This document shows, in pieces, positions 16,932-53,027 of a stretch of DNA of 64,000 nt. The stretch's first letter is position 1. Every line of letters begins with the position of its first letter. This DNA comes from Porphyra umbilicalis (Eukaryota; Rhodophyta; Bangiophyceae; Bangiales; Bangiaceae). The notes below the pieces were generated by a model. The model ran no database searches. It saw only the letters and a list, made by a program, of their open reading frames with translations, and was not told the origin of the DNA. The stretch lies in the NCBI GenBank assembly GCA_002049455.2, contig KV918838.1, positions 208,971 to 272,970 on the forward strand. The letters run 5' to 3'. The translations under genes were made by a program, and so were the position numbers.

Positions 16932-19900
16932 ATGAATCCGCCCTGCGCGTCGGAGGCGCCGCCGCCGGCGCCGCCGGCGGTGTCCACAGGCACCGTGCTG
17001 CCCGAGGAGGCGTCTCCATCGGTGTTGAAGCTGCCACCGGGGTCTGCTGCGGAGCGCGCGGAGCCTGAGCCGATTTTTCTTTTCAAGAAGGATGCATCTG
17101 GGCAGTACAAGGTATGCTTGTTTGCTCTTTGGTTGGCCGTGCGTGTCTCTGTCTTACTGTGGCAGCATCTTTGATGTCCCCCTCTTTCTTGCTACATGTT
17201 ATACGATTCTGGCGTGCCGTTCCGTGTCTCGGAATGTTCCCAGAGCTGATATCCCATGTTCGTCCGATGGTGATGCTATGTCTATGTACTTCTTGTGGCG
17301 CTTTCCCCCTCTTTTTAGATCTCTCGGCGCAAAACTGTTGGCGAGGTTGTCATCCATGGCGAGGAGCCGACGCCATACCTCCGCACCACTGAAGCCGGGG
17401 TCGCGCACGTGGTGACCATGTCACGGGCGAGCGCGACGATGCACTTCCGCGACAGCCCCTACACGTGGGGGGATCCTAAGGGGTCCTCTAACACCTCTTT
17501 GTGCCTGGCAGGCCGCTGGCGGCCCTACGAGATGCGATCTCACGGCTGCATTCCCCCTATGGTGTGCTCCCGCATGCGCTCGGAGGTCGCCAATATGGAG
17601 CACACGGAGGTCGACTTCAACAACCCCACGTGGCTGGCGGCAATGCAGCTGTGTGAGGAGGACGAGACGCCCGAACGACAGGCGCATAAGACCACCCTGG
17701 TACGTGTCACTTGAGCATGGCCCTACATTTGTTGCTTGTGTGGTGCCTCTTTGACTACCTGGCAGTGACGTAGTGTGTATTGAGTCTGACATGTCCAGTT
17801 GCTTCCTGCCTCGCGCGTTCCTTTTTGGTGCATGATTTGGATGGACGGGCATCATGACAGTCCTATTTCAAGTCCTTGCAAAAAACCCTAGAAGGGGGGT
17901 GTTCGTTTGAGGACGAAGAAGGATGCCAGTGCGGCGGCAATCCCGTGGTCAAGCCTTCGAGCACAACGCGCGGGGCATTCGTCGGCTGCTCCGATTGGAA
18001 GAAGGGCGATCCCCCAACCCATTCGGGAGGCCATATGGCTCGTTGGGTGCCGGCTGGGGTGGATTTGGACCGTTTGAGCAAGTGGTTGGACAGCGGCGTT
18101 GATGAGCTGCAGCCTGCCGGCAACTGCGTCTTCATCGCTCCCAAGTGCACGCGCGAGCTGGAGTGCAAGCGGCACGGCGGCGAGTTCCCCGACCTGGTGC
18201 GGTCAGGTAGCGGTGCTTGCCCAGTAAGAGTCCACTTTTACACTCCACGGGGACCCCGGGACTCGGGCGGGGGGCCTATCCGAACCGTCATCGTCATGCG
18301 CGGGAAGCACAACCACGTGTACCCTGTGTGGAAACCGAACAGCGCGGTGGTGCACAGAGTAGTGGCTGAGAATCCGTCGCTGTCCATTCGAGCGCTGCAG
18401 GTACGCTGACTTTTCATCGTTGCTTGGACTGACTTTCGTTGTGTTGGGTGAACTACAGTGCTCTTTGATTTCTGTCTGCTGTGCCACGGTGAACTGACGC
18501 CTTTTCGACCCGCTGTGGTGTCTTGATTGCTTGACGCAGAATGCAATCAGCGACGCAAGCGGTGGGGGCCAGGTCAGCAGCTCTTTTACGCGTAAGCTGC
18601 GCCAGAAAGCCCGGGCGACGGCGCACCCCTTTGGACAGGACATCCTGGGGATCACCGACCTCTACCGCCGGGCTGGATCGCGGCACGACTACATCCGGGC
18701 CATACTACAGAAGCCCGACTACACCGCAGTGATACTGCAGACGGACGAACAGGCGGCCTGGTCGGGCAAGCTGCGGTACATCCAGGCCGACTCTACTTTT
18801 GGCGTCGTCGCCCCCGGCTCTGCAAAGGAGGGTGTACCAGCGGAGGTCATTCGCAACGCTGGCAAACGAGCCTTTGACTGGGATCTCCTTATTATCGCGT
18901 ACGTTCTGGGCGTACTTTTTGTATGACATGTTAGACAGGGGGGGCGTGAAGCGCACGGCACAAGCGGTCCGCACATGTAGTTCGACCAACAATAAGGTCA
19001 AAGTGGGTCGTCTCGACTGCATGTATTGACTGACGACAGCACCGTACTTTTCGTTTTTTCTGACTACAATATCCTGTCGTCTGCCTTTTTTTATTGCTCA
19101 TTTTTTGTGATTGGCGCAGCGCGTTTGTTCACTCTCTGAATCAGACTGTGGTGTTGTTTCGAGCCATGGTGATAGGCAAGGTGGCTGAAATGTACGAGGA
19201 GCTGTTTGAGTACTTCTTCCGTACGGCCGCTGCCAACGGGCTCCTTGCGCCGCGGGTGGCAGGAAGCGCCGGTGCCGACAGCAGGGCGCGTGCCGGACGG
19301 GTACCGTTTGTGTCTGCAACCATGGACTTTGAAACGGCACAGCACCTGGGCTTTTTTGGGGGGCTGGCGCGCGTTTTCGGCGGGCAGCCGAGCGACTACC
19401 ATGGGCGCGCCATCGGGTGCGGCGTGCACTTTAAGCGGTTCCTCCTCAAGCCCTGTGGTAACGACCTGCGGGATCCATTTTACACTCGCATGGTGTACCT
19501 GCGGGAGTCGGACGAGGAGCGCGGGCTGCCCGACGTGCGGCGGGAGCTGTCGACGATGGCAGCCGACTACCAGAATCAGGGGGAAAACAAGAAGGCCAAC
19601 ATCATCAAGTGGCTGCTCAAAAACGAGGCCGCCCTGATGGCCGCCTTCCCTCGCAGCACCGGTATGCTGGACAAATTCGAGCTCTTGGCCAGCCACCACG
19701 ACACGAACTCGTGCGAGTCTCTAAACCGCCAGACGAAGCAAGTCGTCGCGGAGAAGAGCGCGTCTACGCTATTGGAAGTCGTGTCGGCGCTGTCGGACTG
19801 TGACCACCGGACGATGGCGGGCCTGACGACCGCGGGGCTGCCGACGCCGGTCGGGGCCTCCCAAACCGCGCGGATGAACCGGTCCGCAACGCGGAAGCGA

Positions 19901-20435
19901 CGGACCAACGCTGTGCCAGTCGCCGGGCAGCCGCCAAAGACGGCACGCCCGCGGCGCGAGCGCGGCAAATCGGCGGACGCGGCTACTGCCGCACGTGCGG
20001 CGTCGGAGGGACAGGGGCAGTCGAAGACCGCGGCAGAGGGAGGGGTACCGTCAGTGGAGACAGGCGGGGGGCCCTTGGCGGCGACTGGAGGTGGGGGGAC
20101 TCCGGCAGCGGCGGCAGGCGAGGGGGCCTCGGTGGTGGTCGGAGGCGGGTGGATCTCGGCGGCGGTGGCAGGCGGGGGGCATCGGCGGCGGCGGCCGGCG
20201 GGGGCGCCTCGGCGGCGGCGGCAGGCGGGGGGCGTCGGCGGCGGCGGCAGGCGGGGGGGCACCGGCGGCGGCCGGCAGTGTTGCGGTATCGACTGCCTCC
20301 GCCATGCCCACTGTCACGGCGGCGACAACCCCCGCTGCCGTGCCGAGTACCCTGTCACTGGAGCTGTTCGCGGAATTTCAGCTTTTCTTGGCGGCGCGGG
20401 CGCAGGCGGCTGCCGCTCGCGATGGAACCCTGTAG
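16932..20435 (+). CDS. MULE transposase, copy 1 (five exons, C-terminus frame-shifted)
   Basis: Exons inferred from GT-AG signals and continuous frame: 16932-17111, 17319-17699, 17873-18400, 18540-18898, 19120-20435. The protein cuts and pastes the element. Exon 3 carries a Cys/His cluster ending in MRGKHNHVYP, like the WRKY/FLYWCH-type zinc fingers found at the start of many MULE transposases. Exon 4 has the first catalytic Asp in YIQADSTFGVV. Joining exon 4 to 5 gives LLIIA-AFVHSLNQTVV. Exon 5 has the second Asp in VSATMDFETAQHLGF and a conserved tail region (NSCESLNRQTKQ). Compared with copy 2, two G-runs in the Gly/Ala-rich tail near 20180 and 20230 are each one base shorter. This shifts the frame so that the ELFAEFQLFLAARAQ ending is lost. 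Confidence 0.8.
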
Positions 20436-22520
20436 GGCGGGGCTGTGGGGGGGCTCCCGCCTGGCGCGACCTGAGGGTGTGTGTGGGCGTGAGATGAATG
20501 AAACATCCACGGCAATGTATTGATGACAAAGCACCCAATGACAAAGGCTGCTCGCGAGACACCCTGTATCCAATGACCTTGTGACTCGCACAAAAAGAAA
20601 AAGAAAAGGAACGAACTCGCAGAGTAAAGAAAAGGACCGAACAAGCTGCGGGGTGCAGCGCAACGACACGGCTGGTCGAGGAAAAAGTCGAAGGTGGACA
20701 TGCTGCCACCGGGGGGCTCAGACAACCGGTCCGCCGGGAACCCAACGGGTCTGTGGAGATGCATTCGGAGCAAGGTCACGAGAGAGCAGTCACCGGGGGG
20801 GGGGGGATCACAGCTGAAGGGATGTAGTGCACTGAGGGGAAGCTCACTCAGAGCGACACAGAGCAGGTGAATGAATCAGCGGTCTGCTCCGTAACTCCCA
20901 CGCCCCACATGGCCCATCGCAGGGCGCCAGAGGGGGTGGCGCCGTGGCGCTGCACCGGCGTACGCGGCCGCACACTTCTGTCAAGAGGCCTCCCCCACGC
21001 CCCTCCCCCCCCCTTCCCCCGCGGGCACGTACGTCGGCAACACGCAGAACGACCTAACGGTGTCGTACTCTATGATGCGCGGAGACAACTCCCGTCCCTC
21101 CACTATCACCGAATCTCCCCACATCTCCCGCTACCACTTGTTGACCGACCAAAGAAAGACGACCTCCCCCTCCAACTTCAATACCGCCACCCCTCCCACC
21201 CTCAACAACGCCTTCCTCTTCCAGCTTGAGCCTCGCCCCCACCCACCAGCTTGAGCACGGCCCCCCCCGCCAGCTTGAGCACCGGCACCCCCCCAACATG
21301 ACCACCGCCCCCCCCTCTCGCTGGAGCCCCGCCCCCTGTACAGGCTTGCGTACCGCCCCCCCCCTCAGACTGAGCACCGCCCCCCCCCCCCCCGCTGAAA
21401 CCCCACCCTCCCCACCAGCATGCGCATCGCCCCACCCGCCGGATTTCGCACCGCTCCCCCCCTCAGCTCGACAGAGGGTAGGTGGCGGCGGGGGGGTGGC
21501 GGCGAAGAGATGTGACGGGAGGAGCGGGTGGCGGCGGAACGAGATGGTAGCAGCGGCAGGTAGCGGCAGCGGCAGGTGGCTTCGGGGGCGGGTGGCGGCG
21601 TAGGGAGGTGGTCGCGGCCGCCAGTGGCGGCGAAGGGAGGTCGTGGCCGCTGCAGGTGCCAGCGGGGGTGGATGGAGGCGGGGGCGCTTGGCGGCGGACG
21701 GAGGTGGTGGCGACGGTAGGGGGCGGCGGCAGGTGGCGGCGGGAGCTGGTGTTGGCGTGCCCTGTTGGCGGCGTAGGGAGGTGGTAGCAGCGGTAGGTGG
21801 CGGAGGGGGCGGGCGGCGCCGGGTGCGGATGGCGGCAGCGGCACGTGTCGGCCGATAGGCAGGTGGCGGGGGATAGTGGTGGTGCATGGAGATAAAGGTG
21901 TCGGCGGGTGGTGGCGGAGGGGGTTGGTGGGGGCGGGGGCGGGTGGTGGCGGGGGCCGGCGGCGGCGTAGGGAGGTGGTGGCGGCGGGGGCGGGTGGTGG
22001 CGGCGGCGGGGGCGGGTGGTGGCGGCGGCCGGTGGTGGCGTAGGGAGGTGGTGGCGGCGGCAGGTGGCGTCGGGAACGAAGACTCAGCAGACAGGACGAT
22101 GGGGGCGGGGGGTGGGCGCCGCTGTGGAGCGGGCGCCCCGCGGGTGTCCGTACGCGATCATGGTGCGGGTGTCCCCCCCGCCTGCGCCACCGTGCGCAAC
22201 GTCACCGATGCGGGAGTGGGCGTGCCCCCCCCTCACTAATGTGCCCCCGCGGCCGCCCCAGTGCACGCGGTCGTCGATGCTGGCGGCAGGGCGGGTGCCC
22301 CGCGAGTGTGTCCACCCGCGGCCGCCCCGTTCCACCCCGTTTTCAATGCGGGGGAGTGGTGCAGGGGCGGGGGGGCGCGCACGCCGTTGGCAGCGGCAGG
22401 GCGGGTTCCCCGCAGGTGTGCCCCCCCGCGGGCGCCCCGGTCCGTGCCGTCGCCGGTGTGGTGGGGGCGCGCGCGCGCGCGCACCCGGCCGCGGTCGGCC
22501 AGTCGAGCGCTGTTGCGCAG
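20436..22520. other. non-coding 3' part of MULE copy 1 with C-rich to G-rich switch
   Basis: After the transposase stop there is a C-rich plus strand to about 21470, then a G-rich plus strand with many GGTGG/GGCGG runs to about 22080. Frames here are compositional. The block is repeated at 26631-28716 in copy 2. The G-rich half could form G-quadruplexes. Confidence 0.6.
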
Positions 22521-22669
22521 TCGATCAGCAACCGAACCCCACCTTAACCCATCATACATGAACCGAGAATTCCGTCCCTCATTGAATTGAAGTATCCCCC
22601 ATTTCTCGTCTAGGCACCTGAACCCCACCCTAGCGAGTGGACATGAACCCCACCCTGGTCCCGAGCCCG

Positions 22670-22681
22670 TCACACGGTTTG
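22670..22681. repeat. junction between the two MULE copies (TCA + CACGGTTTG)
   Basis: Between the right end of copy 1 (GAGCCCG) and the left end of copy 2 (GGGGCTAGG) lie TCACACGGTTTG. CACGGTTTG (22673-22681) recurs right after copy 2 at 28866-28874 and is a 9-bp target duplication, the length expected for MULEs. The target belongs to the CACGGTTTGCAACTGCGAAC repeat. Confidence 0.75.
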
Positions 22682-23124
22682 GGGGCTAGGGGTGGAGGTG
22701 GGGTTCATGTCCGACCGCTGAGGTGGGGTTAGGGTGCATGTTGGGAGTTGGAGTGGAATTGGAATTGCAAGGTTGTGTATTGAAGCACTGCTAGTAAGAT
22801 GGGTTGAGGTGGGGTTCAGTTGGGGACGGACAGCCCCACGCACGACGTCGTGTCTGATTTTTGGCGCCACCTGGGACGACAGGTGGGGTCGCGAGCATCT
22901 GCGCGCGCTTTTGGCGATGCATCCGCGTTTTTGCCCCACACCCCTCCCCCGTCAACCGTTTCTTGAGACGACGCCGCCCCAAATGGCCTTCGCACTGCTG
23001 GTATGGACGACGCTGTCTACGATTCCTCCACCGCCACACCCCTCACCAATCCCCTTTCTCGTCCCGCGTTGCCGTGGGCATCAACGAGCAGCACAGCGCA
23101 CGCGGCGAGCTGCCGCGACCGGCC

Positions 23125-26100
23125 ATGAATCCGCCCTGCGCGTCGGAGGCGCCGCCGCCGGCGCCGCCGGCGGTGTCCACAGGCACCGTGCTGCCCGAGG
23201 AGGCGTCTCCATCGGTGTTGAAGCTGCCACCGGGGTCTGCTGCGGAGCGCGCGGAGCCTGAGCCGATTTTTCTTTTCAAGAAGGATGCATCTGGGCAGTA
23301 CAAGGTATGCTTGTTTGCTCTTTGGTTGGCCGTGCGTGTCTCTGTCTTACTGTGGCAGCATCTTTGATGTCCCCCTCTTTCTTACTACATGTTATACGAT
23401 TCTGGCGTGCCGTTCCGTGTCTCGGAATGTTCCCAGAGCTGATATCCCATGTTCGTCCGATGGTGATGCTATGTCTATGTACTTCTTGTGGCGCTTTCCC
23501 CCTCTTTTTAGATCTCTCGGCGCAAAACTGTTGGCGAGGTTGTCATCCATGGCGAGGAGCCGACGCCATACCTCCGCACCACTGAAGCCGGGGTCGCGCA
23601 CGTGGTGACCATGTCACGGGCGAGCGCGACGATGCACTTCCGCGACAGCCCCTACACGTGGGGGGATCCTAAGGGGTCCTCTAACACCTCTTTGTGCCTG
23701 GCAGGCCGCTGGCGGCCCTACGAGATGCGATCTCACGGCTGCATTCCCCCTATGGTGTGCTCCCGCATGCGCTCGGAGGTCGCCAATGTGGAGCACACGG
23801 AGGTCGACTTCAACAACCCCACGTGGCTGGCGGCAATGCAGCTGTGTGAGGAGGACGAGACGCCCGAACGACAGGCGCATAAGACCACCCTGGTACGTGT
23901 CACTTGAGCATGGCCTTACATTTGTTGCTTGTGTGGTGCCTCTTTGACTACCTGGCAGTGACGCAGTGTGTATTGAGTCTGACATGTCCAGTTGCTTCCT
24001 GCCTCGCGCGTTCCTTTTTGGTGCATGATTTGGATGGACGGGCATCATGACAGTCCTATTTCAAGTCCTTGCAAAAAACCCTAGAAGGGGGGTGTTCGTT
24101 TGAGGACGAAGAAGGATGCCAGTGCGGCGGCAATCCCGTGGTCAAGCCTTCGAGCACAACGCGCGGGGCATTCGTCGGCTGCTCCGATTGGAAGAAGGGC
24201 GATCCCCCAACCCATTCGGGAGGCCATATGGCTCGTTGGGTGCCGGCTGGGGTGGATTTGGACCGTTTGAGCAAGTGGTTGGACAGCGGCGTTGATGAGC
24301 TGCAGCCTGCCGGCAACTGCGTCTTCATCGCTCCCAAGTGCACGCGCGAGCTGGAGTGCAAGCGGCACGGCGGCGAGTTCCCCGACCTGGTGCGGTCAGG
24401 TAGCGGTGCTTGCCCAGTAAGAGTCCACTTTTACACTCCACGGGGACCCCGGGACTCGGGCGGGGGGCCTATCCAAACCGTCATCGTCATGCGCGGGAAG
24501 CACAACCACGTGTACCCTGTGTGGAAACCGAACAGCGCGGTGGTGCACAGAGTAGTGGCTGAGAATCCGTCGCTGTCCATTCGAGCGCTGCAGGTACGCT
24601 GACTTTTCATCGTTGCTTGGACTGACTTTCGTTGTGTTGGGTGAACTACAGTGCTCTTTGATTTCTGTCTGCTGTGCCACGGTGAACTGACGCCTTTTCG
24701 ACCCGCTGTGGTGTCTTGATTGCTTGACGCAGAATGCAATCAGCGACGCAAGCGGTGGGGGCCAGGTCAGCAGCTCTTTTACGCGTAAGCTGCGCCAGAA
24801 AGCCCGGGCGACGGCGCACCCCTTTGGACAGGACATCCTGGGGATCACCGACCTCTACCGCCGGGCTGGATCGCGGCACGACTACATCCGGGCCATACTA
24901 CAGAAGCCCGACTACACCGCAGTGATACTGCAGACGGACGAACAGGCGGCCTGGTCGGGCAAGCTGCGGTACATCCAGGCCGACTCTACTTTTGGCGTCG
25001 TCGCCCCCGGCTCTGCAAAGGAGGGTGTACCAGCGGAGGTCATTCGCAACGCTGGCAAACGAGCCTTTGACTGGGATCTCCTTATTATCGCGTACGTTCT
25101 GGGCGTACTTTTTGTATGACATGTTAGACAGGGGGGGCGTGAAGCGCACGGCACAAGCGGTCCGCACATGTAGTTCGACCAACAATAAGGTCAAAGTGGG
25201 TCGTCTCGACTGCATGTATTGACTGACGACAGCACCGTACTTTTCGTTTTTTCTGACTACAATATCCTGTCGTCTGCCTTTTTTTATTGCTCATTTTTTG
25301 TGATTGGCGCAGCGCGTTTGTTCACTCTCTGAATCAGACTGTGGTGTTGTTTCGAGCCATGGTGATAGGCAAGGTGGCTGAAATGTACGAGGAGCTGTTT
25401 GAGTACTTCTTCCGTACGGCCGCTGCCAACGGGCTCCTTGCGCCGCGGGTGGCAGGTAGCGCCGGTGCCGACAGCAGGGCGCGTGCCGGACGGGTACCGT
25501 TTGTGTCTGCAACCATGGACTTTGAAACGGCACAGCACCTGGGCTTTTTTGGGGGGCTGGCGCGCGTTTTCGGCGGGCAGCCGAGCGACTACCATGGGCG
25601 CGCCATCGGGTGCGGCGTGCACTTTAAGCGGTTCCTCCTCAAGCCCTGTGGTAACGACCTGCGGGATCCATTTTACACTCGCATGGTGTACCTGCGGGAG
25701 TCGGACGAGGAGCGCGGGCTGCCCGACGTGCGGCGGGAGCTGTCGACGATGGCAGCCGACTACCAGAATCAGGGGGAAAACAAGAAGGCCAACATCATCA
25801 AGTGGCTGCTCAAAAACGAGGCCGCCCTGATGGCCGCCTTCCCTCGCAGCACCGGTATGCTGGACAAATTCGAGCTCTTGGCCAGCCACCACGACACGAA
25901 CTCGTGCGAGTCTCTAAACCGCCAGACGAAGCAAGTCGTCGCGAAGAAGAGCGCGTCTACGCTATTGGAAGTCGTGTCGGCGCTGTCGGACTTTGACCAC
26001 CGGACGATGGCGGGCCTGACGACCGCGGGGCTGCCGACGCCGGTCGGGGCCTCCCAAACCGCGCGGATGAACCGGTCCGCAACGCGGAAGCGACGGACCA

Positions 26101-26630
26101 ACGCTGTGCCAGTCGCCGGGCAGCCGCCAAAGACGGCACGCCCGCGGCGCGAGCGCGGCAAATCGGCGGACGCGGCTACTGCCGCACGTGCGGCGTCGGA
26201 GGGACAGGGGCAGTCGAAGACCGCGGCAGAGGGAGGGGTACCGTCAGTGGAGACAGGCGGGGGGCCCTTGGCGGCGACTGGAGGTGGGGGGACTCCGGCA
26301 GCGGCGGCAGGCGAGGGGGCCTCGGTGGTGGTCGGAGGCGGGTGGATCTCGGCGGCGGTGGCAGGCGGGGGGGCATCGGCGGCGGCGGCCGGCGGGGGCG
26401 CCTCGGCGGCGGCGGCAGGCGGGGGGGCGTCGGCGGCGGCGGCAGGCGGGGGGGCACCGGCGGCGGCCGGCAGTGTTGCGGTATCGACTGCCTCCGCCAT
26501 GCCCACTGTCACGGCGGCGACAACCCCCGCTGCCGTGCCGAGTACCCTGTCACTGGAGCTGTTCGCGGAATTTCAGCTTTTCTTGGCGGCGCGGGCGCAG
26601 GCGGCTGCCGCTCGCGATGGAACCCTGTAG
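23125..26630 (+). CDS. MULE transposase, copy 2 (five exons, about 921 aa, complete)
   Basis: Exons 23125-23304, 23512-23892, 24066-24593, 24733-25091 and 25313-26630 join in frame from an ATG to a TAG. The same Cys/His N-terminal finger, catalytic Asp residues and conserved SCESLNRQTKQ block as copy 1 are present. Here the Gly/Ala-rich tail (repeats of GGGASAAAA) stays in frame and ends FAEFQLFLAARAQAAAARDG, so this copy is the better candidate for an active enzyme. Introns are 140-222 bp with GTAT/GTAC donors. Compared with copy 1 it has about two coding differences near 25943-25993 (an AAG for GAG and a TTT for TGT codon). Confidence 0.85.
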
Positions 26631-28716
26631 GGCGGGGCTGTGGGGGGGCTCCCGCCTGGCGCGACCTGAGGGTGTGTGTGGGCGTGAGATGAATGAAACA
26701 TCCACGGCAATGTATTGATGACAAAGCACCCAATGACAAAGGCTGCTCGCGAGACACCCTGTATCCAATGACCTTGTGACTCGCACAAAAAGAAAAAGAA
26801 AAGGAACGAACTCGCAGAGTAAAGAAAAGGACCGAACAAGCTGCGGGGTGCAGCGCAACGACACGGCTGGTCGAGGAAAAAGTCGAAGGTGGACATGCTG
26901 CCACCGGGGGGCTCAGACAACCGGTCCGCCGGGAACCCAACGGGTCTGTGGAGATGCATTCGGAGCAAGGTCACGAGAGAGCAGTCACCGGGGGGGGGGG
27001 ATCACAGCTGAAGGGATGTAGTGCACTGAGGGGAAGCTCACTCAGAGCGACACAGAGCAGGTGAATGAATCAGCGGTCTGCTCCGTAACTCCCACGCCCC
27101 ACATGGCCCATCGCAGGGCGCCAGAGGGGGTGGCGCCGTGGCGCTGCACCGGCGTACGCGGCCGCACACTTCTGTCAAGAGGCCTCCCCCACGCCCCTCC
27201 CCCCCCCTTCCCCCGCGGGCACGTACGTCGGCAACACGCAGAACGACCTAACGGTGTCGTACTCTATGATGCGCGGAGACAACTCCCGTCCCTCCACTGT
27301 CACCGAATCTCCCCACATCTCCCGCTACCACTTGTTGACCGACCAAAGAAAGACGACCTCCCCCTCCAACTTCAATACCGCCACCCCTCCCACCCTCAAC
27401 AACGCCTTCCTCTTCCAGCTTGAGCCTCGCCCCCACCCACCAGCTTGAGCACGGCCCCCCCCGCCAGCTTGAGCACCGGCACCCCCCCCAACATGACCAC
27501 CGCCCCCCCCCTCTCGCTGGAGCCCCGCCCCCTGTACAGGCTTGCGTACCGCCCCCCCCCTCAGACTGAGCACCGCCCCCCCCCCCCCCGCTGAAACCCC
27601 ACCCTCCCCACCAGCATGCGCATCGCCCCACCCGCCGGATTTCGCACCGCTCCCCCCCTCAGCTCGACAGAGGGTAGGTGGCGGCGGGGGGGTGGCGGCG
27701 AAGAGATGTGACGGGAGGAGCGGGTGGCGGCGGAACGAGATGGTAGCAGCGGCAGGTAGCGGCAGCGGCAGGTGGCTTCGGGGGCGGGTGGCGGCGTAGG
27801 GAGGTGGTCGCGGCCGCCAGTGGCGGCGAAGGGAGGTCGTGGCCGCTGCAGGTGCCAGCGGGGGTGGATGGAGGCGGGGGCGCTTGGCGGCGGACGGAGG
27901 TGGTGGCGACGGTAGGGGGCGGCGGCAGGTGGCGGCGGGAGCTGGTGTTGGCGTGCCCTGTTGGCGGCGTAGGGAGGTGGTAGCAGCGGTAGGTGGCGGA
28001 GGGGGCGGGCGGCGCCGGGTGCGGATGGCGGCAGCGGCACGTGTCGGCCGATAGGCAGGTGGCGGGGGATAGTGGTGGTGCATGGAGATAAAGGTGTCGG
28101 CGGGTGGTGGCGGAGGGGGTTGGTGGGGGCGGGGGCGGGTGGTGGCGGGGGCCGGCGGCGGCGTAGGGAGGTGGTGGCGGCGGGGGCGGGTGGTGGCGGC
28201 GGCGGGGGCGGGTGGTGGCGGCGGCCGGTGGTGGCGTAGGGAGGTGGTGGCGGCGGCAGGTGGCGTCGGGAACGAAGACTCAGCAGACAGGACGATGGGG
28301 GCGGGGGGTGGGCGCCGCTGTGGAGCGGGCGCCCCGCGGGTGTCCGTACGCGATCATGGTGCGGGTGTCCCCCCCGCCTGCGCCACCGTGCGCAACGTCA
28401 CCGATGCGGGAGTGGGCGTGCCCCCCTCTCACTAATGTGCCCCCGCGGCCGCCCCAGTGCACGCGGTCGTCGATGCTGGCGGCAGGGCGGGTGCCCCGCG
28501 AGTGTGTCCACCCGCGGCCGCCCCGTTCCACCCCGTTTTCAATGCGGGGGAGTGGTGCAGGGGCGGGGGGGCGCGCACGCCGTTGGCAGCGGCAGGGCGG
28601 GTTCCCCGCAGGTGTGCCCCCCCGCGGGCGCCCCGGTCCGTGCCGTCGCCGGTGTGGTGGGGGCGCGCGCGCGCGCGCACCCGGCCGCGGTCGGCCAGTC
28701 GAGCGCTGTTGCGCAG
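26631..28716. other. non-coding 3' part of MULE copy 2
   Basis: Repeat of 20436-22520. The C-rich segment runs to about 27660 and is followed by a G-rich segment with GGTGGCGG runs. Includes an alternating GCGCGCGC stretch near 28665-28678 that could adopt Z-DNA. Confidence 0.6.
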
Positions 28717-28865
28717 TCGATCAGCAACCGAACCCCACCTTAACCCATCATACATGAACCGAGAATTCCGTCCCTCATTGAATTGAAGTATCCCCCATTT
28801 CTCGTCTAGGCACCTGAACCCCACCCTAGCGAGTGGACATGAACCCCACCCTGGTCCCGAGCCCG

Positions 28866-28900
28866 CACGGTTTGCAACTGCGAACGGGCCTGAGGCTGTG
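28866..28900 (+). repeat. copy of the dispersed CACGGTTTGCAACTGCGAAC motif carrying the MULE target duplication
   Basis: CACGGTTTGCAACTGCGAAC followed by GGGCCTGAG. The same 29-mer (one variable base) is present twice direct and once inverted at the palindrome centre (15545-15640) and inverted near 11669. It marks the original right end of the palindromic element, now separated from it by the two MULEs. Confidence 0.75.
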
Positions 28901-31618: not shown

Positions 31619-34600
31619 ATGGTTCGGCGGTCCAAGACACCGACCAGCACGGTCAGCTCGTCTGCGGGTTCGTCGCCGAGTCGGCGGGAGTACCACCTCC
31701 CGGACGACGATGCCAACGAAGCGTGGCTGGCCCTGCTGCTCCCGTTTGCGGGGCGCCTGCGGCTGCCTCACAAGCCCAGCCGCAAGAAGGCGGTGCGCCA
31801 GTTTTTCCTGGGACCGGTGGTCGAAACACAGCCCGCCGTTGACGTTTGGCTGCAGTGCGGCCTGCACTTTCGCACAGTGTCAGACGGCGACAAGGTGCCC
31901 GTGCCCGGGAGCCAGCTCCCGACATCGGGTGGCGAGCGGCAGGGCTGGCGGTTTTTGCCGCTGCGCCGTGACGCGCCCGACGGGACCCGCTTCTTTGACG
32001 TCCGGGTGGGGCCCGCCGGGGATGGCGGGCCGGGGTCGGCGACGGCGGTCCGAAGGGGGATGCCTGTGGAGTCGAACTGGGTGGAAGTCTACTCGCTTCT
32101 GTCGCCACCGGCCTTTGACGCGGTCACCTTCATAGCGAAGAACGAAGACGACGCTGCCGTGTGGGCGACTCAGCTGGCCATGCGGGCCGCGCCCCTGTCA
32201 AGGGTCTGGCAGCGGGCAATGAAGGGGCCTGCGGTGGGGGTGGACAGTGCCGCGGGGTCCTCAACGCGCCCGTGGGTGGGCAGGGCGCGGGCGCTGTCCG
32301 ACGCGGTCAACAAGTTGATGGACACGGGTGCCCCCGTCGCGGTGACGGGAGTCGTCACGGCTGTCATGTGTGACGAGATCTTCAATGCGGTCACGTCGGC
32401 GGGCTCGTGCGTGGCATTTGCGGTCGGGGCCCTGGCCATGGTCGTGCGCGTGTGTGCGGCGGCGGCGGCTATGGGTGACTTTGTCGATGACCTCCGGGGC
32501 AAGGTGCGGGACCTTTCGACCGTGTTGCGCTCGCACTTGCTCCCTGCCGTTGCCAGCCTCGAGGAGGCGGGGTCGTCCAACGCGGCGACGCTGCGAGTCG
32601 ATGTGGCTGTGACGGCTGCCGACCTGGATGCCCTGGTGGGGAGGCTGCTCCACCTCTCCCTCTCAAAGGGCGCCAGCCTGCGGGAGGCGGCCATTGCGGG
32701 TGGCAGGATCGAGGCATTGTCGCCGGCGAAGGAGGTGGAGGCGTGTAGGTCAAAGGTGGCAGCACTCGTGGACATCACCACATTGGACGCGTGCCACCAG
32801 CTCACGAACCAGACCATCGACACGGCGCGTGTGGAACTTGCTAAGGTCATTGAGAGCGCGCAGGCGCAGGTGGCCGTGCCGACGGTGTCGCACTACATCG
32901 TCGCCGAGTGGAGTGACGCCCACGCTGCTCAGCCGTGGTGTCGGCTGCTGGCGCTGGTCCCGCGCCCGTCATTGTCATCGACCACGCGGAGCGGCGCTTG
33001 TGTGGTCAGCGTCTACGGAATGGGGGGCGTCGGCAAATCGACGGTGTGCGAACTGGTGGCTCAGAAGGTGGCCGCTGACCAAACAGACAGCGGTCGCTAC
33101 TACGATTCTGTCTACTGGGTGCAGCTCGGCCAAGTGTCGGATGAGTCGAACGTGATCGCGAAGATGGTGGCACTTGCGACGTCGCTGAGCAAAACGGAGG
33201 TGTCGGCGCCCACCATCCGCGTCGCTGTCAATCTTCTGCGGGACGCGCTGGCGGGAAAGGCCGTGCTCATCGTCATCGACGATTGCTGGAGTGATGTGCT
33301 TGCAGAGCACTTTTTGAGTGTCGTGCGGGACTCACGCTGCGGCCGCTGCTGCCTTGTCTTCTCCACAAGGGCGGAACGCATCGCCGTTGGAGTCGCTGGG
33401 GACGACCGCGTCGTGCACGTTGAGCCGATGGAGCCAAAGGCGGGCGAGGACATGCTGCTTGCCTACGCGCTGGACAGAAGATTGTCCGAGTTGCCGTTGT
33501 GCGACGAGGGCAAGAACGAGGCGCTAAGCGAGCTGCTCAAGGCCGCGGCGGGGCTGCCACTGGCGTTGGCTTTGCTTGGGTCGTTGGTGGGCGCCAAGGG
33601 GTGGACATCGGCGGCCAAGCAGCTGGGCGATGCGGTGAACCGCGGGTCCGTCTCTCGTGACAGCCGGTACCCGACGTTGTGGGCGTGCTTTGACGCCAGC
33701 TATGAGCTGCTCAGCATCGATCTAGCGCGCCGCTTCCGAGCACTTTGTGTCATCGAGAAGCAAGAGGCGCTGCCGCACTCGGCGCTGATGGCGTTGTGGC
33801 GGATAGACGAGGCAGCGGCCAGAACGTGTGCGCACGATTTGGCCAGTGCTCAGTTGGTCAAGGTGATGTCCGGGTCGGGAGGCACGGGCAAGCTCGACTT
33901 GCGCCTCCACGACCTGGTGGTCGACTGGGTCCGCGACAAGGTGTCGTCCGGGTCTGAGGAGCGGGAGGGGTTCCACGCGGCTCTAGTCAACAATTCCGCA
34001 TTGGCGGCGGGGCTCAAAGTGGTGAAGCCAGAGCCCTGCCGGCGATGGTGGGCCCTACCTGCTGGCGACTACATTGTGCAGACCCTGTGCCGCCACCTGC
34101 GCGCGGCGGGCGCGTCGCTGTGGGAGGAGCTGGTCGCCCTGCTGTGTGACATGCGGTGGATCGAGGCGCGCGTGGGCCACAGCGGGGGCACGGCGGTTGC
34201 CTACCGCTCCGATTGCCGGGTGTCGGGGGTGGCACTGATGGAGCGCGTTGCCACGGTGTTGGAGGGCTCTCTCAGTTCGGCAGCGACTTTGGGGATCCCC
34301 GCGATGCAGCTGACGGCGTTTGAGGTGAACGAGCGACTCCGACACGCCTCGCCTGTTGGTGGCACCGAGCGTGACGTTGTGGCACGGCTGCGGCACTCGG
34401 CCACGCAGTGCCTGCGTCCCCCGACGATCGAATTGTCGGACTCCTGCCCGCTCCCACTTCCTCAAGAGGTGAGCATTTTGTTCGGCCATCAACGCCGAGT
34501 GACCTGCAGCTGTGTTGTCCAGGACTTGGTGGGAAGGGCACTGGTGGTGTCTGGGTCGGAGGACAAGACGCTGCGCGTATGGGACGCGGGCCGCGGGGAG

Positions 34601-36630
34601 TGTGTTGGGGTGCTCAACGGCCACTCGGAGTCGGTCACGTGCGTGTGTGTGGTGGAGGTCGATGGGGGGGGTGACGGAGGTGGCGGTGGCGGCAAGGTGC
34701 AGCGCGTGGTGTCTGGGTCCTGGGACAACACGCTGCGGGTATGGGACGCGGGCCGCGGGGAGTGTGTTGGGGTGCTCAACGGCCACTCGGAGTCGGTCAC
34801 GTGCGTGTGTGTGGTGGAGGTCGATGGGGGGGGTGACGGCGGTGGCGGTGGCGGCAAGGTGCAGCGCGTGGTGTCTGGGTCCTGGGACAAGACGCTGCGC
34901 GTATGGGACGCGGGCCGCGGGGAGTGTGTTGGGGTGCTCAACGGCCACTCGTCGAGGGTCACGTGCGTGTGTGTGGTGGAGGTCGATGGGGGGGGTGACG
35001 GAGGTGGCGGTGGCGGCAAGGTGCAGCGCGTGGTGTCTGGGTCGGTCGAGTGGACGCTGCGCGTATGGGACGCGGGCCGCGGGGAGTGTGTTGGGGTGCT
35101 CAACGGCCACTCAAAGTCGGTCACGTGCGTGTGTGTGGTGGAGGTCGGTGGGGGTGGTGACGGCGGTGGCGGTGGCGGCAAGGTGCAGCGCGTGGTATCT
35201 GGGTCGGACGACAAGACGCTGCGTGTGTGGGACGCGGGCCGCGGGGAGTGTGTTGGGGTGCTCAACGGCCACTCGGAGCCGGTCACGTGCGTGTGTGTGG
35301 TGGAGGTCGGTGGGGGTGGTGACGGCGGTGGCGGTGGCGGCAAGGTGCAGCGCGTGGTGTCTGGGTCCTGGGACAACACGCTGCGCGTATGGGACGCGGG
35401 CCGCGGGGAGTGTGTTGGGGTGCTCAACGGCCACTCAAAGTCGGTCACGTGCGTGTGTGTGGTGGAGGTCGATGGGGGGGGTGACGGCGGTGGCGGTGGC
35501 GGCAAGGTGCAGCGCGTGGTGTCTGGGTCCTTGGACTATACGCTGCGCGTATGGGACGCGGGCCGCGGGGAGTGTGTTGGGGTGCTGAACGGCCACTCGT
35601 CGAGGGTCACGTGCGTGTGTGTGGTGGAGGTCGGTGGGGGTGGTGACGGCGGTGGCGGTGGCGGCAAGGTGCAGCGCGTGGTGTCTGGGTCGGACGACAA
35701 GACGCTGCGCGTATGGGACGCGGGCCGCGGGGAGTGTGTTGGGGTGCTCAACGGCCACCGGGAGTCGGTCACGTGCGTGTGTGTGGTGGAGGTCGATGGG
35801 GGGGGTGACGGCGGTGGCGGTGGCGGCAAGGTGCAGCGCGTGGTGTCTGGGTCGTTCGACAGGACGCTGCGCGTATGGGACGCGGGCCGCGGGGAGTGCG
35901 TGGGGGTGCTGCACGGCCACTCGTTTGCGGTCACGTGCGTGTGTGTGGTGGAGGTCGATGGGGGGGGTGACGGCGGTGGCGGTGGTGGCAAGGTGCAGCG
36001 CGTGGTGTCTGGGTCGGTCGAGTGGACGCTGCGCTTATGGGACGCGGGCCTCGGGGAGTGTGTTGGGGTGCTCATCGGCCACTCGTTGACGGTCACGTGC
36101 GTGTGTGTGGTGGAGGTCGGTGGGGGTGGTGACGGCGGTGGCGGTGGCGGCAAGGTGCAGCGCGTGGTGTCTGGGTCGGACGACAAGACGCTGCGTGTGT
36201 GGGACGCGGGCCGCGGGGAGTGTGTTGGGGTGCTGAAAGGCCACGTGGACAGGGTCACGTGCGTGTGTGTGGTGGAGGTCGGTGGGGGTGGTGACGGCGG
36301 TGCCGGTGGCGGCAAGGTGCAGCGCGTGGTGTCGGGGTCGTTCTTCAAGCGCTGTGTGTGTGGGACGCGGCTGCAGATGGGTCTTTCGTGGGGGGCCCTG
36401 TTTTGCTGTTGCCCTCGCACGCCGTCGTGTTGTCGGCTGTTGTGGAGCGCCCGGGGTCGGTTTTGTGTACCTGTTGGACGGGCGCCGTTTATCTTGTGGA
36501 CACACTTCTCTACGAGGTGTTTCCGCTTGCTTTTCCAATGACTGTGCGTACCGTCTGCTCTTACGCTCGAGGCCAAGTGGTGCTTGGTTCTGAGCATCGT
36601 GTTGACTTTGCTCGCTTGCTTCTTGAGTAG
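31619..36630 (+). CDS. NLR-type receptor: N-terminal domain, NB-ARC, WD40 repeats (frameshift in last blade)
   Basis: The first ATG of the long frame is at 31619; the copy at 53027 starts at the same Met. Residues ~25-200 look PH-like at their end (FDAVTFIAKNEDDAAVWATQLA). Residues ~220-430 are helical with a hydrophobic stretch (CVAFAVGALAMVVRVCAAAA), recalling HeLo/MLKL-type cell-death helix bundles. The NB-ARC ATPase has the P-loop GMGGVGKST (~466), Walker B VLIVIDDCW (~548), CLVFSTRAERI (~578), GLPLALALLG (~645) and an MHD-like RLHDLVVDW (~762). From ~950 on there are eleven full WD40 repeats of 54 residues. A missing base after 36349 ends the straight frame at 36541. In the next frame the twelfth blade (VWDAAADGSFVGGPV...) runs on to TAG 36628-36630, so a protein of about 1670 aa is likely if that base is a sequencing error. 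Predicted role: cytosolic immune or allorecognition sensor with ligand binding by the propeller. Confidence 0.85.
34547..36349 (+). repeat. eleven 162-bp WD40-coding repeats plus a partial twelfth
   Basis: Units start at 34547, 34709, 34871, 35033, 35195, 35357, 35519, 35681, 35843, 36005, 36167 and 36329 (period exactly 162 bp = 54 codons). Each codes SGS-xxx-TLRVWDAGRGECVGV, then NGH-xxx-VTCVCVVEV, then a Gly-rich loop (GGGDGGGGGGKVQRVV). The DNA is almost identical between units apart from two three-codon clusters. The 12-residue Gly loop is unusual for WD40 blades. Confidence 0.95.
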
Positions 36631-37868: not shown

Positions 37869-39325
37869 CGTCGCCGCCGCCGCCGCCGCAGCCGCAGCCG
37901 CCGCCGCTGCCGCCGCCGCAGCCCCCGCCGCCCGCATGGCGGGTGGCAGACGGCGTGCGGCACGCACACGCAGGCGGGGGTCCGCCGACGTCTGTGCTCC
38001 TGCGGGTGGCCTCGACCCGTGGGCGGCGTGTACGGCTCCGACTGGGGTGCGCATCGTGGACGCCTCTGGCGGCGGAGGCCGGTGCCGGAGTGGCCGGGGC
38101 GGATGCCAGCGCGCGCCCGTGGTCGCGTGGGCTGGGTGCCGCTCCACGCGTTTCGTGTTGACTTGTCCTCTTCCCGTTTTTTGTTTTTTGTTTTTTTGCC
38201 TCTTGCCGCTCTTGCCTTTTTCCTCGTCTGCTTTCTTCATGTTTGGTTTGTTTTCTTTTTCTCGTTAGCGTTCTTTGTTGTTTCTTGTTCACTTCCCATT
38301 CTCCCGTTTCTCTGCTTCCTCACGCACAAACTGCTTTGTGCGCACCCCGCGGGTGGTAGGCAGCGCGGCGGCTGCCGCGCGCAGCCCGCACGTGGCCGTC
38401 CTAGACGGCGGCCGGCCACCGCCGCTGGTCGAGGTCCCCCGCCGCCAACGGCACCACAGGCGTCCCCAGTGCGCGACGCTGCCGCCTCGCACCGGCGCCG
38501 GCCGAGGCACCGACGACGTCGCCCCTGGCGCTGTGCCCGCACCCGTCGCCGGGACAGCAGGGTGCCGGCACATCCCCCCCCGCCGCCGCCGCCGGGACGC
38601 GGACACAGCCGGCGCCCGCATGGGGCAGCGGCACGGTGATGGCCTGGCACCCGGCGCCCCCGCCTCTTCAAGCAGGCCAATCGGGTTGTTGCCCCCCTCG
38701 GCGGCGACCGCGGTGGGGTGGTGGCACCCCCGAGCGGCGTGCACCCGCCACCCGGTCACAGGCCAGAGACGGTGACGGAACGGGGCGACCCCCCCCCGAG
38801 GCCAACGCGCCAAGGATCACTGCGCGGTCGCCGCGGCCGCCCGCCCTCCCCCGTCATCCGGGAGCCTGCCAGGCGCCGGTGGCCCGCTGCTGCTGGCGCG
38901 GCCTCTGGCCGCCGCCGCCGCCGCTGCCAGTGGGGACGGCCCCCACGGTCGGGGCAGCGGCGGCGTCGGCATCGGCGGCGGTGGCTTCGGCGCTGGTGAT
39001 GGGGGCGCCCGCGGCGGCGGCGGCGGCAACGACGGGGCCGCCGCTGGCAGCGGTGGCGGGCCAGGCGGCGACCGCAATGGCGGTGGCGGCGGCGGCGACG
39101 CCGGGCACCTGCCGCACACCGCTGGTGAGCGCTCCGCGAGTCGTCGCGGACGGCGCTGTGGCCCCGCTTGTGCGTCGCGCGCCTCGGCACGCGGGCCTCT
39201 GCGTGGGCGTTGCTGCCCCACTCCGCACTGCTGAGGTAGCTGCGCGCGGCGCTGCCGTCGCCGCCCTTCGGCGCGCCGCCCGCGCGTTGGTCGCTTGGCG
39301 GCCATGGAAGCGCCGGCGGTGCGGT

Positions 39326-40799: not shown

Positions 40800-41330
40800 C
40801 CCCACCAACAGCCCCGCCGACAACACCGACGGCCAACCCCACCAACAGCCCCGCCGCCAACCCCCACCGCCAACCCCACCAACAGCCCCGCCGCCAACAC
40901 CGACCGGCAGCCCCCACCAACAGCCCCGCCGCCAACACCGACCGGCAGCCCCCACCGACGGCTCCGCCGCCAACACCGACCGGCAACCCCCACCGACAGC
41001 CCCGCCGCCAACACCGACCGGCAGCCCCGACCGATAGCCCCGCCGCCAACGCCGACCGGCAGCCCCTACCGGCAGCCCCGCCGCCAACACCCACCGGCAA
41101 CCCCCACCGGCAGCCCCGCGGCCGACACCGACCGGCAGCCCCCACCGGCAGCCCCGCCGCCAACACCGACTGGCAGCCCCCACCGGCAGCCCCGCCGCCA
41201 ACGCCGACCGGCAACCCCCACGGGCAGCCCCGCTGCCAACACCGACCGGCAGCCCCGACCGACAGCCCCACCGGCAACACCGACCGGCAGCCCCGACCGA
41301 CAGCCCCGGCCGCCAACACCCAACCGCCGC
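40800..41330. repeat. 38-bp minisatellite, about 14 copies
   Basis: The unit CAACACCGACCGGCAGCCCC followed by a CACCGACAGCCCCGCCGC-type half repeats every 38 bp (for example 40895 and 40933). Because 38 is not a multiple of three, each unit shifts frame, which keeps all three frames open on both strands. The long Pro/Thr- or Gly/Val-rich frames here are not evidence of proteins. Confidence 0.85.
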
Positions 41331-50400: not shown

Positions 50401-50466
50401 CGCTCATCTTAACCCACCAGTACCTCAAGCGCGTCTTCGGCCATCTTAACTTCTCCCTGACCTGGG
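47403..50466 (+). CDS. unknown repetitive protein, two exons, in-frame TAG, 3' end overwritten
   Basis: ATG 47403 starts MAPPGFGNPDDGSVS, an acidic region (IDVDALDCDNDNA), and meets TAG 47667. The same frame continues immediately with FGGALGVALLEQKTEVLQEE and stays open to a GTATGT donor at 49992. The acceptor at 50203-50204 joins in phase to VLLLEALVCEIRTATTSAEV and MKMSESDTTEKLQQKMM. Residues ~140-260 are 10-residue repeats (GEKATVGKMVLVGGAASGDE-type). The middle is Pro/Ala/Ser-rich and disordered. Residues ~760-860 look coiled-coil (SSVRRELTRLRAELVVVKSQ). Near 50466 the sequence passes into the inverted NLR-locus duplicate, so the natural C-terminus is probably lost; the chimeric frame ends at 50825. 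Family unknown. Confidence 0.55.
47880..48160 (+). repeat. coding minisatellite (GEKATVGKM / VLVGGAASG units)
   Basis: Imperfect tandem copies of GGCGAGAAGGCGACGGTCGG and of AAGATGGTGTTGGTCGGTGG alternate with GGGCGACGAG. They keep the reading frame, giving a low-complexity charged linker. Variation between copies is by substitution and by whole-unit gain or loss. Confidence 0.7.
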
Positions 50467-50774
50467 GCCGGCTGGCGGGTGCGCGCCGCGCGGGGGTGCC
50501 ACCACCCCCACCGCGGTCGCCGCCGAGGGGCGCACGCACACGATGGGTCTGCCAGACGGGGCGGGGGCGCCGGGTGCCAAGCCGTCCCCGTGCCTCCGCC
50601 CCATGCGGGCGCCGGCTGTGGCCGCGTCCCGGCGGCGGGGGGGGGGGGGGGATGTGGCGCCGCGCTGCCGTCCCGACGACGGGTGCGGGCACAGCGCCAG
50701 GGGCGTCGTCGTCGGTGCCTCGGCCGGCGCCGGTGCGAGGCGGCAGCGTCGCGCGATGGAGACGCCTGTGGGGC

Positions 50775-51807
50775 CGTTGGCGGCGGGGGAACAGGACCGG
50801 GAACAGAGTTGTGCCAATGACGTAGCGTTTTACCATTTGCATGAGCTTAGGGATCCATACGCCGGACCCCGAGCCGGCCAAGCCGACAAAGCGAGGGTGA
50901 ACAGCAGTGCAGATAAGCAAAACGTGGGGACCGAGCGCAATGGGGAAGCGCTCCACGTCCAGCCGGTCTTGTACACGTCCGAATGCGCCACTGTACGTCG
51001 CGCGCGGCGCTCGCCTGTGCCGGGCGCGGAGACCGTCGTGGCCGCGGTCGTATACACATTGGGTACTTGCGGGTACATGTGGGTGTAGCCGCACGTCCCG
51101 ACCGGCAGGAAGAAGTAGAGGCACGTGCCGATGTTCTCGGTCCAGAAGGTCGCGAGGTAACACACCGAGGGGAGAAAAGGGGCCGCGAGAAGCAAAGGAC
51201 GTTAGGGGGCAAGGAGGAGGAAGATGCGAGCAGCAAAGCGCGCCCCTCTTAAGCCCTCGACGCCGCCGCCCTCCGTCCGCGCCGCCCCGCCCGTCCGCCC
51301 GTCGCTGTTCCCCGCACCGGGGGGGGGACGTCACGCAGCGCGCGCGCTCGGCCGCGTGCGCGTGCGTCGCCCGCTGGTCGGCCCCGAGCCGTTGCGGCGG
51401 GGCGAGGGGAGACGGCGCCCCATGGCGTGGCCGCCCTGTAGGCGGCTTTGCGGAGGGCGCGAGGGGGCGGGAGGCTGCTGCTCGAATTGATGAGCGTCTG
51501 GATGTCGGCGGGGAGGGTGACGTGGCGCCCGCACGCCCCGGCCACCAAGGCCGCCAGGGGGGGCGCTGCGTCGCCGCCGTCCACAGAGAGCGCGGCGAGC
51601 CATGGGTGGCGGGCGCCGGTGGGTGCCGCCAGCGTGGCGCTGCGGCCTCCGCACGCCGCCGGAGTGGAAGCACAGGAGCGGTGCGTCTGCCGCGCCCGCT
51701 CCGGAAGCGGCGTTGGCGATGTGGAAGCGTCCATGTGGCCCCCCCCCCCGACCGATGGGAAATCCGTTCCCGTAAGGTTCCGAGGGCAAATCGTTGACAG
51801 CCAAAGC
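50775..51807. other. about 1.03 kb segment inside the duplicate with no counterpart in the intact locus
   Basis: The matching blocks of the NLR locus are continuous at 38.44 kb but separated here by this segment. No inverted ends and no clean target duplication are visible, so it may be an insertion here or a deletion in the other copy. A minus-strand frame (about 51250-51700, with LAALSVDGGDAAPPLAALVA and ACGRHVTLPADIQTL) looks protein-like. Another at about 51190-50830 is hydrophobic (FLPSVCYLATFWTENIG). Neither is recognised. A poly-C run lies near 51740. Confidence 0.5.
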
Positions 51808-53027
51808 AGACCTCGACCAGCGGCGGTGGCCGGCCGCCGTCTAGCTAGGACGGCCACGTGCGGGCTGCGCGCGGCAGCCGCCGCGCTGCCTACCACCCGC
51901 GGGGTGCGCACAAAGCAGTTTTTGCGTGGGGAAGCAGAGAAACGGGAGAGTGGGAAGTGAACAAGAAACAACAAAGAACGCAAATGAGAAAAAGAAGAAA
52001 ACAAACCAAACATAAAGAAAGCAAACGAGAAAAACGACAAGAGCGGCAAGAGGAAAAAAAAACAAAAAAAAATGGGAAAAGGACAAGTCAACACGAAACG
52101 CGTGGAGCGGCACCCAGCCCACGCGAACAAAAGGTCCCGCATCTCGCCCTGGAGGTCATCGGCAAAGTCACCCATAGCCGCCGCCGCCGCACACACGCGC
52201 ACGACCATGGCCAGGGCCCCGACCACAAATGCCGCGCACGAGCCCGCCGTCGTGACTGCATTGAAGATCTCGTCACACATGACAGCCGTGACGACTCCCG
52301 TCACCGCGGCGGGGGCACCCGTGTCCATGAACTTGTTGACCGCGTCGGACAGCGCCCGCGCCCTGCCCACCCACGGGCGCATTAAGGACCCCGCGGCACT
52401 GTCCACCCCCACCGCAGGCCCCTTCATTGCCCGCTGCCAGACCACTGACAGGGGCGCGGCCCGCATGGCCAGCTGAATCGCCCACACGGCAGCGTCGTGC
52501 TCGTTCTTCGCTATGAAGGTGACCGCGTCAAAGGCCGGTGGCGACAGAAGCGAGTAGACTTCCACCCAGTTCGACTCCACAGGCATCCCCCTTCGGACCG
52601 CCGTCGCCGACCCCGCCCCGCCATCCCCGGCGGGCCCCACCCGGACGTCAAAGAAGCGGGTCCCGTCGGGCGCGTCACGGCGCAGCGGCAAAAACCGCCA
52701 GCCCCGCCGTTCGCCACCCGATGTCGGGAGCTGGCTCCTGGGCACGGGCACTTCGTCGCCGTCTGACACTGTGCGAAAGTGTGGGCCGCACTGCAGCCAA
52801 ACGTCAACGGCGGGCTGTGTTTCGACCACCGGTCCCAGCAAAAACTGGCGCACCGCCTTCTTGCGGCTGGGCTTGTGAGGCAGCCGCAGGCGCCCCGCAA
52901 ACAGGAGCATCAGGGCCAGCCACGCTTCGTTGGCATCGTCGTCCGGGAGGTGGTACTCCCGCCGACTCGGCGACGAACCCGCCGGCAAGCTGACGCTGCT
53001 GGTCGGTGACTTGGACCGCCGAAGCAT
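51808..53027 (-). pseudogene. truncated NLR paralogue (N-terminal domain only, NB-ARC and WD40 deleted)
   Basis: ATG at 53027-53025 starts MLRRSKSPTSSVS, aligned with the Met of the intact NLR, followed by the same REYHLPDDDANEAWLAL region, the PH-like end (FIAKNEHDAAVWAIQLA) and the hydrophobic helix (VVGALAMVVRVCAAAAA). At DLQGEMRDL (about 52129) the sequence jumps to what lies downstream of the intact gene (38.12 kb). The frame stays open through T-rich, hydrophobic sequence (FFFLLPLLSFFSFAFFMFGL), then on through the 1-kb unknown segment to 51249. A shortened product with a membrane-like tail is therefore conceivable, though a decayed gene is likelier. Confidence 0.7.

Follow-up and report, generated by a model that had tools for sequence, protein, structure and literature searches.

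A Porphyra umbilicalis NB-ARC-WD40 gene with homogenised blades and hypervariable loop codons as a putative diversifying recognition receptor

How might a red alga come to hold a WD40 propeller whose blades are nearly copies of one another except at a few loop codons, and what could such a protein be for? The question is raised by a gene on the forward strand of a 64,000-nucleotide stretch of Porphyra umbilicalis DNA (hereafter the window), which is the terminal part of contig C78 (KV918838.1, positions 208971-272970 of 272970) in an assembly of 83.8 Mb and 665 contigs (GCA_002049455.2). By domain content, the locus is predicted to encode a NOD-like receptor (NLR) of the STAND type, with an NB-ARC switch followed by a C-terminal repeat sensor. 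Comparison of its repeats with related arrays and paralogues in the same genome leads us to think it likely, as far as sequence can tell, that the gene encodes a diversifying recognition receptor, convergent with the fungal HNWD family without being a member of it.

A homogenised WD40 array and its variable loops

The NB-ARC domain scores 94-99 bits against a Pfam cut-off of 23.5 and has a complete motif set (we take the stretches listed in Table 1 to be its P-loop, Walker B, GLPLA, and MHD-like motifs); 11 Pfam WD40 stretches lie C-terminal to it, so that the NB-ARC joined to a WD40 propeller, as described in a first-pass annotation of the window, was borne out. Tandem Repeats Finder (TRF) returned a single array at 34544-36370 with a period of 162 and 11.3 copies. 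The eleven near-identical 162-bp repeats noted at that stage are real: mean pairwise DNA identity among them is 96.3% (93.1-99.3) outside six codons that form two triplets per unit, and 59.6% within those codons, whose residues, as listed in the annotation for both triplets, were reproduced exactly. Two accompanying statements held in part. Silent positions do vary little, with synonymous variants at 10 codons outside the triplets, and variation is mostly confined to the triplets; codon 26, immediately before GH, varies too (N/H/I/K), codon 41 is D or G, and triplet 1 is near-fixed at its centre (D in 9/11 units, E in 2/11). A third did not survive, since the Gly-rich loop, taken for an oddity of this gene, is present in identical form in a second array on contig C40 and in a shorter version in a third on contig C11. 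Internal repeat identity in the window array is at least 0.7, the level used to define highly repetitive WD40 proteins (PMC5587647).

Within the triplet codons the proportion of nonsynonymous differences (pN) is 0.457 and that of synonymous differences (pS) is 0.182, against 0.017 and 0.089 in the remaining codons; these and the later pN and pS values come from simple counting across the units and paralogues of one genome, without a codon model. Nonsynonymous change in the triplets runs roughly fivefold above synonymous change in the other array codons (0.457 versus 0.089), which exceeds what relaxed constraint alone should give.

A model of the sensor, built on a three-sequence alignment, has regular four-strand blades, with 12 a-strands counted (mean predicted local distance difference test [pLDDT] 66.2; predicted template modelling score [pTM] 0.55). 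Of 1850 Foldseek matches, 1691 are at E<=0.001 (best E 2.8e-24); WD40 propellers head the matches, and among the 50 listed the eight-bladed designer protein Tako8 has the highest target TM-score (0.83). Modelling the propeller and mapping the triplets, as had been proposed from the sequence, puts the first triplet of each blade at the b-c turn and the second at the d-a loop, on one shared edge, with the Gly-rich a-b loop at the other. We call the triplet edge the top face on the basis of model strand order and the literature, not of computed solvent exposure. With the tail downstream of the array, which adds ~2 cryptic blades by eye, the window gene would reach 14 blades, and the C40 and C11 genes ~16 each, also by eye; these blades would presumably close into two propellers.

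Selection and exchange in related arrays and paralogues

Six top-face codons were defined from the HNWD literature and compared with a 38-codon core, used for random draws, in three arrays: the window array (11 units used), the C40 array (13 of 14 units), and the C11 array (12 of 13). Work on Podospora anserina found strong selection at codons 7 and 9 (d-a loop) and at codons 25 and 27 (b-c turn), with a conserved residue between the two members of each pair (PMC1805685), and positions 10, 11, 12, 14, 30, 32, and 39 are used in PMC12222747. We infer an offset of five between these two numberings, and position 39 was left out. For the transfer to the algal unit, GH is assumed to represent positions 3-4 of the fungal unit. 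Codons with at least three residues are concentrated at the six sites, which hold 5 of 6 such codons in the window array, 5 of 7 in C40, and 5 of 11 in C11 (hypergeometric P, 7e-5, 2.4e-4, and 4.7e-3). Random six-codon draws matched the top-face share of nonsynonymous differences in only 2, 1, and 0 cases, respectively, each out of 20,000. The pN/pS ratio at the six codons is 2.99 in the window, 1.32 in C40, and 1.28 in C11, compared with 0.19, 0.51, and 0.29 in the rest of the unit.

The contrast extends beyond the homogenised arrays. The genome yields 41 NB-ARC matches, from which the window gene and 20 others were read, and WD40 motifs are present in 17 of these 21. Among ten non-homogenised paralogues (mean pS ~0.23), pN/pS is 0.40 in both the N-terminus and the NB-ARC domain and 0.63 across the whole WD40 part; 40 motif-defined top-face sites reach 1.25, versus 0.59 at the other WD40 sites and 0.51 in the c-d loop, a control on the other face. 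Random site sets reached the top-face ratio in 5 of 5000 draws and the top-face pN in 0 of 5000.

Homogenisation appears to proceed within each array. At the DNA level, unit cores are more alike inside an array (identity 0.908 in the window, 0.872 in C40) than between the two (0.824), and the N-terminal plus NB-ARC parts of these two genes are 76% identical. In a tree of units, those of the window form one clade (local support, 0.86) and those of C11 another (1.0), while C40 units are intermixed with those of a stretch on contig C571. The four-gamete test failed for 24 of 45 site pairs in the window, 75 of 253 in C40, and 24 of 66 in C11, and such numerous failures indicate that parts of units have been reshuffled. 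The C571 stretch holds five C40-type units, versus 14 in C40: units 1-4 are 98-100% identical to C40 units 1-4, the last resembles the end of the C40 array, and a frameshift separates units 3 and 4. A 3.3-kb match to C40 (96.4%) spans the array end and 3' flank, and homology ends ~10 nt ahead of the first unit. Either the array shrank in a duplicated or allelic copy, or the contig was misjoined; the stretch is also the one hint of varying repeat number in this single genome. Ahead of the C571 array, and in the same reading frame, is an Ldh_2 fragment (L029, 2399-4987), which would mean either a gene fusion or a chimeric contig.

Among loci L009-L029 and L032, TRF detected homogenised arrays only in L010 (C40), L009 (C11), and the C571 stretch, with weak repeats of 2-3 copies in L028 and L032. 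Another type of gene among the 21 is represented by L026 (a weak TPR match below the Pfam cut-off), L027, and L028. L026 and L027, on contigs C211 and C390, are 99.6% identical over 6.3 kb and would be either a recent duplicate or redundant contigs, and L028 shares its N-terminus with L026; L014 has neither WD40 motifs nor a TPR-type match. At L032 (C8:205500-213500), WD40 units run across several frames with stops, apparently another broken family member. A captured blade fragment of ~115-150 nt, with stops, is carried by a dispersed sequence resembling a mobile element. It occurs at 11 places, of which four were read (L033, L034, L035, and L036) and those on C129, C569, C351, C1, C168, C251, and C32 were judged by the same match range only; the L034 fragment is 89.6% identical to the window units over 115 nt, and L034 and L035 are 99.9% alike over 1614 bp.

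We propose that the array's units would recombine with one another, by unequal exchange or by gene conversion, which would keep the blade scaffold uniform, and that the same exchange would shuffle and duplicate blade variants, among which selection would retain those differing in the top-face loops, so that the propeller surface could change fast. More speculatively, a ligand on the top face, such as a pathogen protein or an altered self protein, might open the NB-ARC switch, and the opened switch could let the N-terminal part act.

State of the window copy and rival explanations

The earlier suggestion of a "rapidly diversifying recognition receptor" is supported by the variable codons in the b-c and d-a loops, their recurrence in two paralogous arrays, and the fastest change at the top face in ten paralogues; it is weakened by the frameshift in the window copy, a feature that the annotation, like the paralogues and the inverted partial copy, does not mention. 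Further results weigh on the same side as the frameshift. In the arrays, pS at the top-face codons is raised as well (0.15, 0.31, and 0.34 in the window, C40, and C11, versus 0.09, 0.13, and 0.20 elsewhere), which may be partly due to the counting of multi-base codon changes, and the window array shows no variation at one of the four strong HNWD sites, the residue next after the V that follows GH (C40 and C11 do vary there). In the paralogues, single pairs are less clear than the set of ten: the pair L018/L022 alone reaches the top-face ratio in 987 of 5000 draws and the pN in 469 of 5000, and the pair L016/L020 reaches the ratio in 481 of 5000 (but the pN in 0 of 5000), with the c-d control exceeding the top face in both (1.71 versus 1.25 and 2.01 versus 1.06, respectively). 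The 1-nt shift near 36340 breaks the window frame before the last blades, and pN/pS between the window and C40 genes is 0.70 in the N-terminal part and 0.74 in the NB-ARC region, a weak-looking constraint next to the 0.40 of both parts in the ten other paralogues.

Together, the frameshift and a broken inverted copy of the gene nearby (Table 1) point to ongoing duplication and breakage of the locus, and the window copy may be inactive or wrongly read; given that the shift falls in the last blade, it may also be recently broken. We therefore regard it as a serious, if tentative, possibility that the array is real and was once diversified while this copy is decaying or inactive, its propeller end removed by the shift, with C40, C11, or other alleles as the active forms. 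Losing a single repeat can be enough to break a het-e allele in P. anserina (PMC12222747). The neighbouring copy already lacks the NB-ARC and WD40 parts and has a pN/pS of 1.58 in its coding part (from 6.5 silent and 28.5 replacement differences), and the tail, with a window-to-C40 ratio of 0.86, extends the weak constraint noted above. Against decay, no other stop precedes the frameshift, and the shifted tail is open for 90 codons, ending about where C40 does (89 codons from the homologous point to the stop), so that the shift would be very recent or a sequence error. When the genome DNA was searched for another allele of the gene's N-terminal and NB-ARC part, the only matches were the gene itself, the C40 gene, and the truncated inverted copy.

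That unit number and order are products of assembly, with reads from near-identical units collapsed or misjoined, seems to us unlikely. For P. anserina, assemblies based on Illumina reads cannot recover arrays of this kind accurately (PMC12222747), and the shortened C40-type array of C571, on a 22-kb contig beside the Ldh_2 fragment, may be chimeric. The window, however, is free of any N, any two of its 11 units differ at 3 to 20 of 162 bases, and such errors would touch the count and order of the unit variants rather than their existence.

An array without a recognition function, in which one blade was recently amplified and its surface loops drift freely, is improbable. Highly repetitive WD40 arrays do arise often across many lineages (PMC5587647, PMC9218822). 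Free drift, however, fits poorly with the excess of triplet pN over the array's synonymous divergence, and the other large surface loop, the Gly-rich one, varies in the window at two residues only (codons 41 and 48); moreover, variation recurs at the same codons of three arrays and at the top face of ten paralogues. Targeted hypermutation of the triplets in place of selection, as by diversity-generating retroelements, whose mutagenesis prefers A positions, would account for the joint rise of pN and pS at the top face and is nonetheless highly improbable, since the triplet differences involve all bases by eye, top-face variation is also found in non-homogenised paralogues, and a search limited to ten open reading frames (ORFs) of the window found no reverse-transcriptase domain. 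A diversifying receptor remains the reading we prefer.

The coordinates of the gene and its copies are collected in Table 1. The N-terminus is possibly PH-like: a PH fold is consistent with a low-confidence model, and sequence searches, including one of the PDB with an N-terminal profile, gave no significant match. A HeLo/RPW8-like identity for the helical bundle was set aside, as no search backed it. The window has a GC content of ~65%; Rfam at the gathering score gave no match in it, and a tRNA scan found none. Its positions 16477-22681 and 22667-28874 form a 6.2-kb tandem duplication (99.7% identical), with no Pfam match in the two ORFs of copy 1 that were scanned, and GC-rich tandem arrays occur at 11911-13724 (262 bp, 6.9 copies) and 40800-41320 (38 bp, 13.7 copies).

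Table 1. Positions of the receptor gene, its parts, and its inverted partial copies in the window
Feature	Position	Strand	Remarks
Receptor ORF as assembled	31619..36541	+	1640 aa from ATG 31619; final ~66 aa in shifted frame
PH-like N-terminal part (possible)	31724..32215	+	seven strands and C-terminal helix; low-confidence model
Helical bundle, PH-like part to NB-ARC	32405..32857	+	model helices 262-282, 284-315, 321-347, 349-360, 368-412
NB-ARC domain	32993..33691	+	E 7e-27
P-loop (presumed)	33017-33040	+	
Walker B (presumed)	33266-33283	+	
GLPLA (presumed)	33551-33565	+	
MHD-like LHDLV (presumed)	33905-33919	+	past NB-ARC end
Eleven full homogenised 162-bp WD40 units	34541..36322	+	in-frame, 54 aa each; twelfth begins 36323
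Triplet 1, unit 1	34559..34567	+	b-c turn, x-D/E-x; repeated every 162 bp
Triplet 2, unit 1	34625..34633	+	d-a loop following GH; repeated every 162 bp
Gly-rich a-b loop, unit 1	34661..34693	+	repeated every 162 bp; pLDDT below 50; edge opposite triplets
Twelfth unit start	36323..36357	+	1-nt shift near 36340 relative to repeat pattern and to C40
C-terminal tail	36358..36630	+	end of blade 12 and ~2 cryptic blades by eye; open 90 codons in other frame
Second copied 3'-flank piece (38435-38769)	50454..50790	-	88.4%
Copy of 3' flank (38123-38436)	51809..52126	-	92.8%; directly adjoins truncated inverted copy
Inverted copy, 5' flank and first ~299 codons	52130..53151	-	95%; without NB-ARC and WD40

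Comparison with known systems

Pyropia yezoensis and Porphyra umbilicalis are known to have genes pairing NB-ARC with WD40 or with TPR, and three NB-ARC-WD40 genes of the former are upregulated >1.5-fold during red rot, an oomycete infection (PMC6928737). The genes studied here have the same domain pairs and, by our own placing, belong to the same organism group; the genome has 12 phycobilisome linker domains, four of them on one plastid-genome-like contig of 185 kb, with three of those four within one 893-aa frame. The available text of PMC6928737 gives domain content and expression and is silent on homogenised arrays or hypervariable sites, and the open-access literature that we searched held no work joining homogenised, top-face-variable WD40 arrays with NB-ARC-WD40 genes for red algae. 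Red-algal immune receptors seem little studied, to judge from the few papers in that literature, and this family is a candidate for recognition in a group farmed as food (nori).

The highly repetitive WD40 proteins of prokaryotes, fungi, and protists are similar in their high internal identity and variable top-face hotspots (PMC5587647, PMC9218822). These surveys are mostly bacterial and fungal; in their accessible portions NB-ARC goes unnamed, and algae are mentioned once in PMC5587647, in a reference, and not in PMC9218822. Brown-algal ROCO-LRR and NB-ARC-TPR genes resemble the present one as algal candidate immune receptors with diversifying repeat units (PMC11378527, where NB-ARC-TPR is only cited). 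They differ in having other repeat folds and exon shuffling, whereas the red-algal gene combines homogenisation and shuffling inside one open frame.

The closest parallel is in fungi, in which homogenised NLR propellers with selected and diversified top-face sites are documented, some of them as allorecognition sensors (PMC4986451, PMC1805685, PMC12222747). HNWD proteins (het-e, het-d, and het-r) usually combine 11 uniform repeats with cryptic blades at the C-terminus, which models arrange as two propellers of seven blades each (PMC12222747), and the algal gene, with 11 uniform repeats, 12 model blades, and ~2 cryptic ones by eye, is laid out alike. Both are nucleotide-switch NLRs with homogenised WD40 units, within-array shuffling, and hypervariable residues at the d-a loop and, flanking a conserved residue, at the b-c turn, with pN/pS above 1 at these sites in all three algal arrays. 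The HNWD-type design proposed in the first-pass annotation accordingly holds for the units and their variable sites and fails in the strict sense: the algal gene has NB-ARC, not NACHT, which is absent among the best 25 of 33 family matches of the window protein (NB-ARC is there at 1e-26), and no HET domain was found in its 457 N-terminal residues at E<=10 or in 14 paralogous N-termini at E<=1. The algal unit, of 54 aa, has a Gly-rich a-b loop, the host is a red alga, and there is no sign of inter-locus unit exchange among the algal arrays compared, if C571 is taken as a C40 duplicate. Red algae might quite conceivably have evolved, independently and on the HNWD plan, a repertoire for self/non-self or pathogen recognition: an NB-ARC-WD40 family in which some members have blades kept identical by internal exchange and varying mainly in top-face loops, double propellers of ~14-16 blades, and perhaps an N-terminus of a PH-like, membrane-binding type, with blade fragments captured by the dispersed element as a potential source of further variants. 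That the HNWD layout recurs at the same loop positions on a red-algal NB-ARC protein suggests that this fast-changing receptor design evolved more than once.

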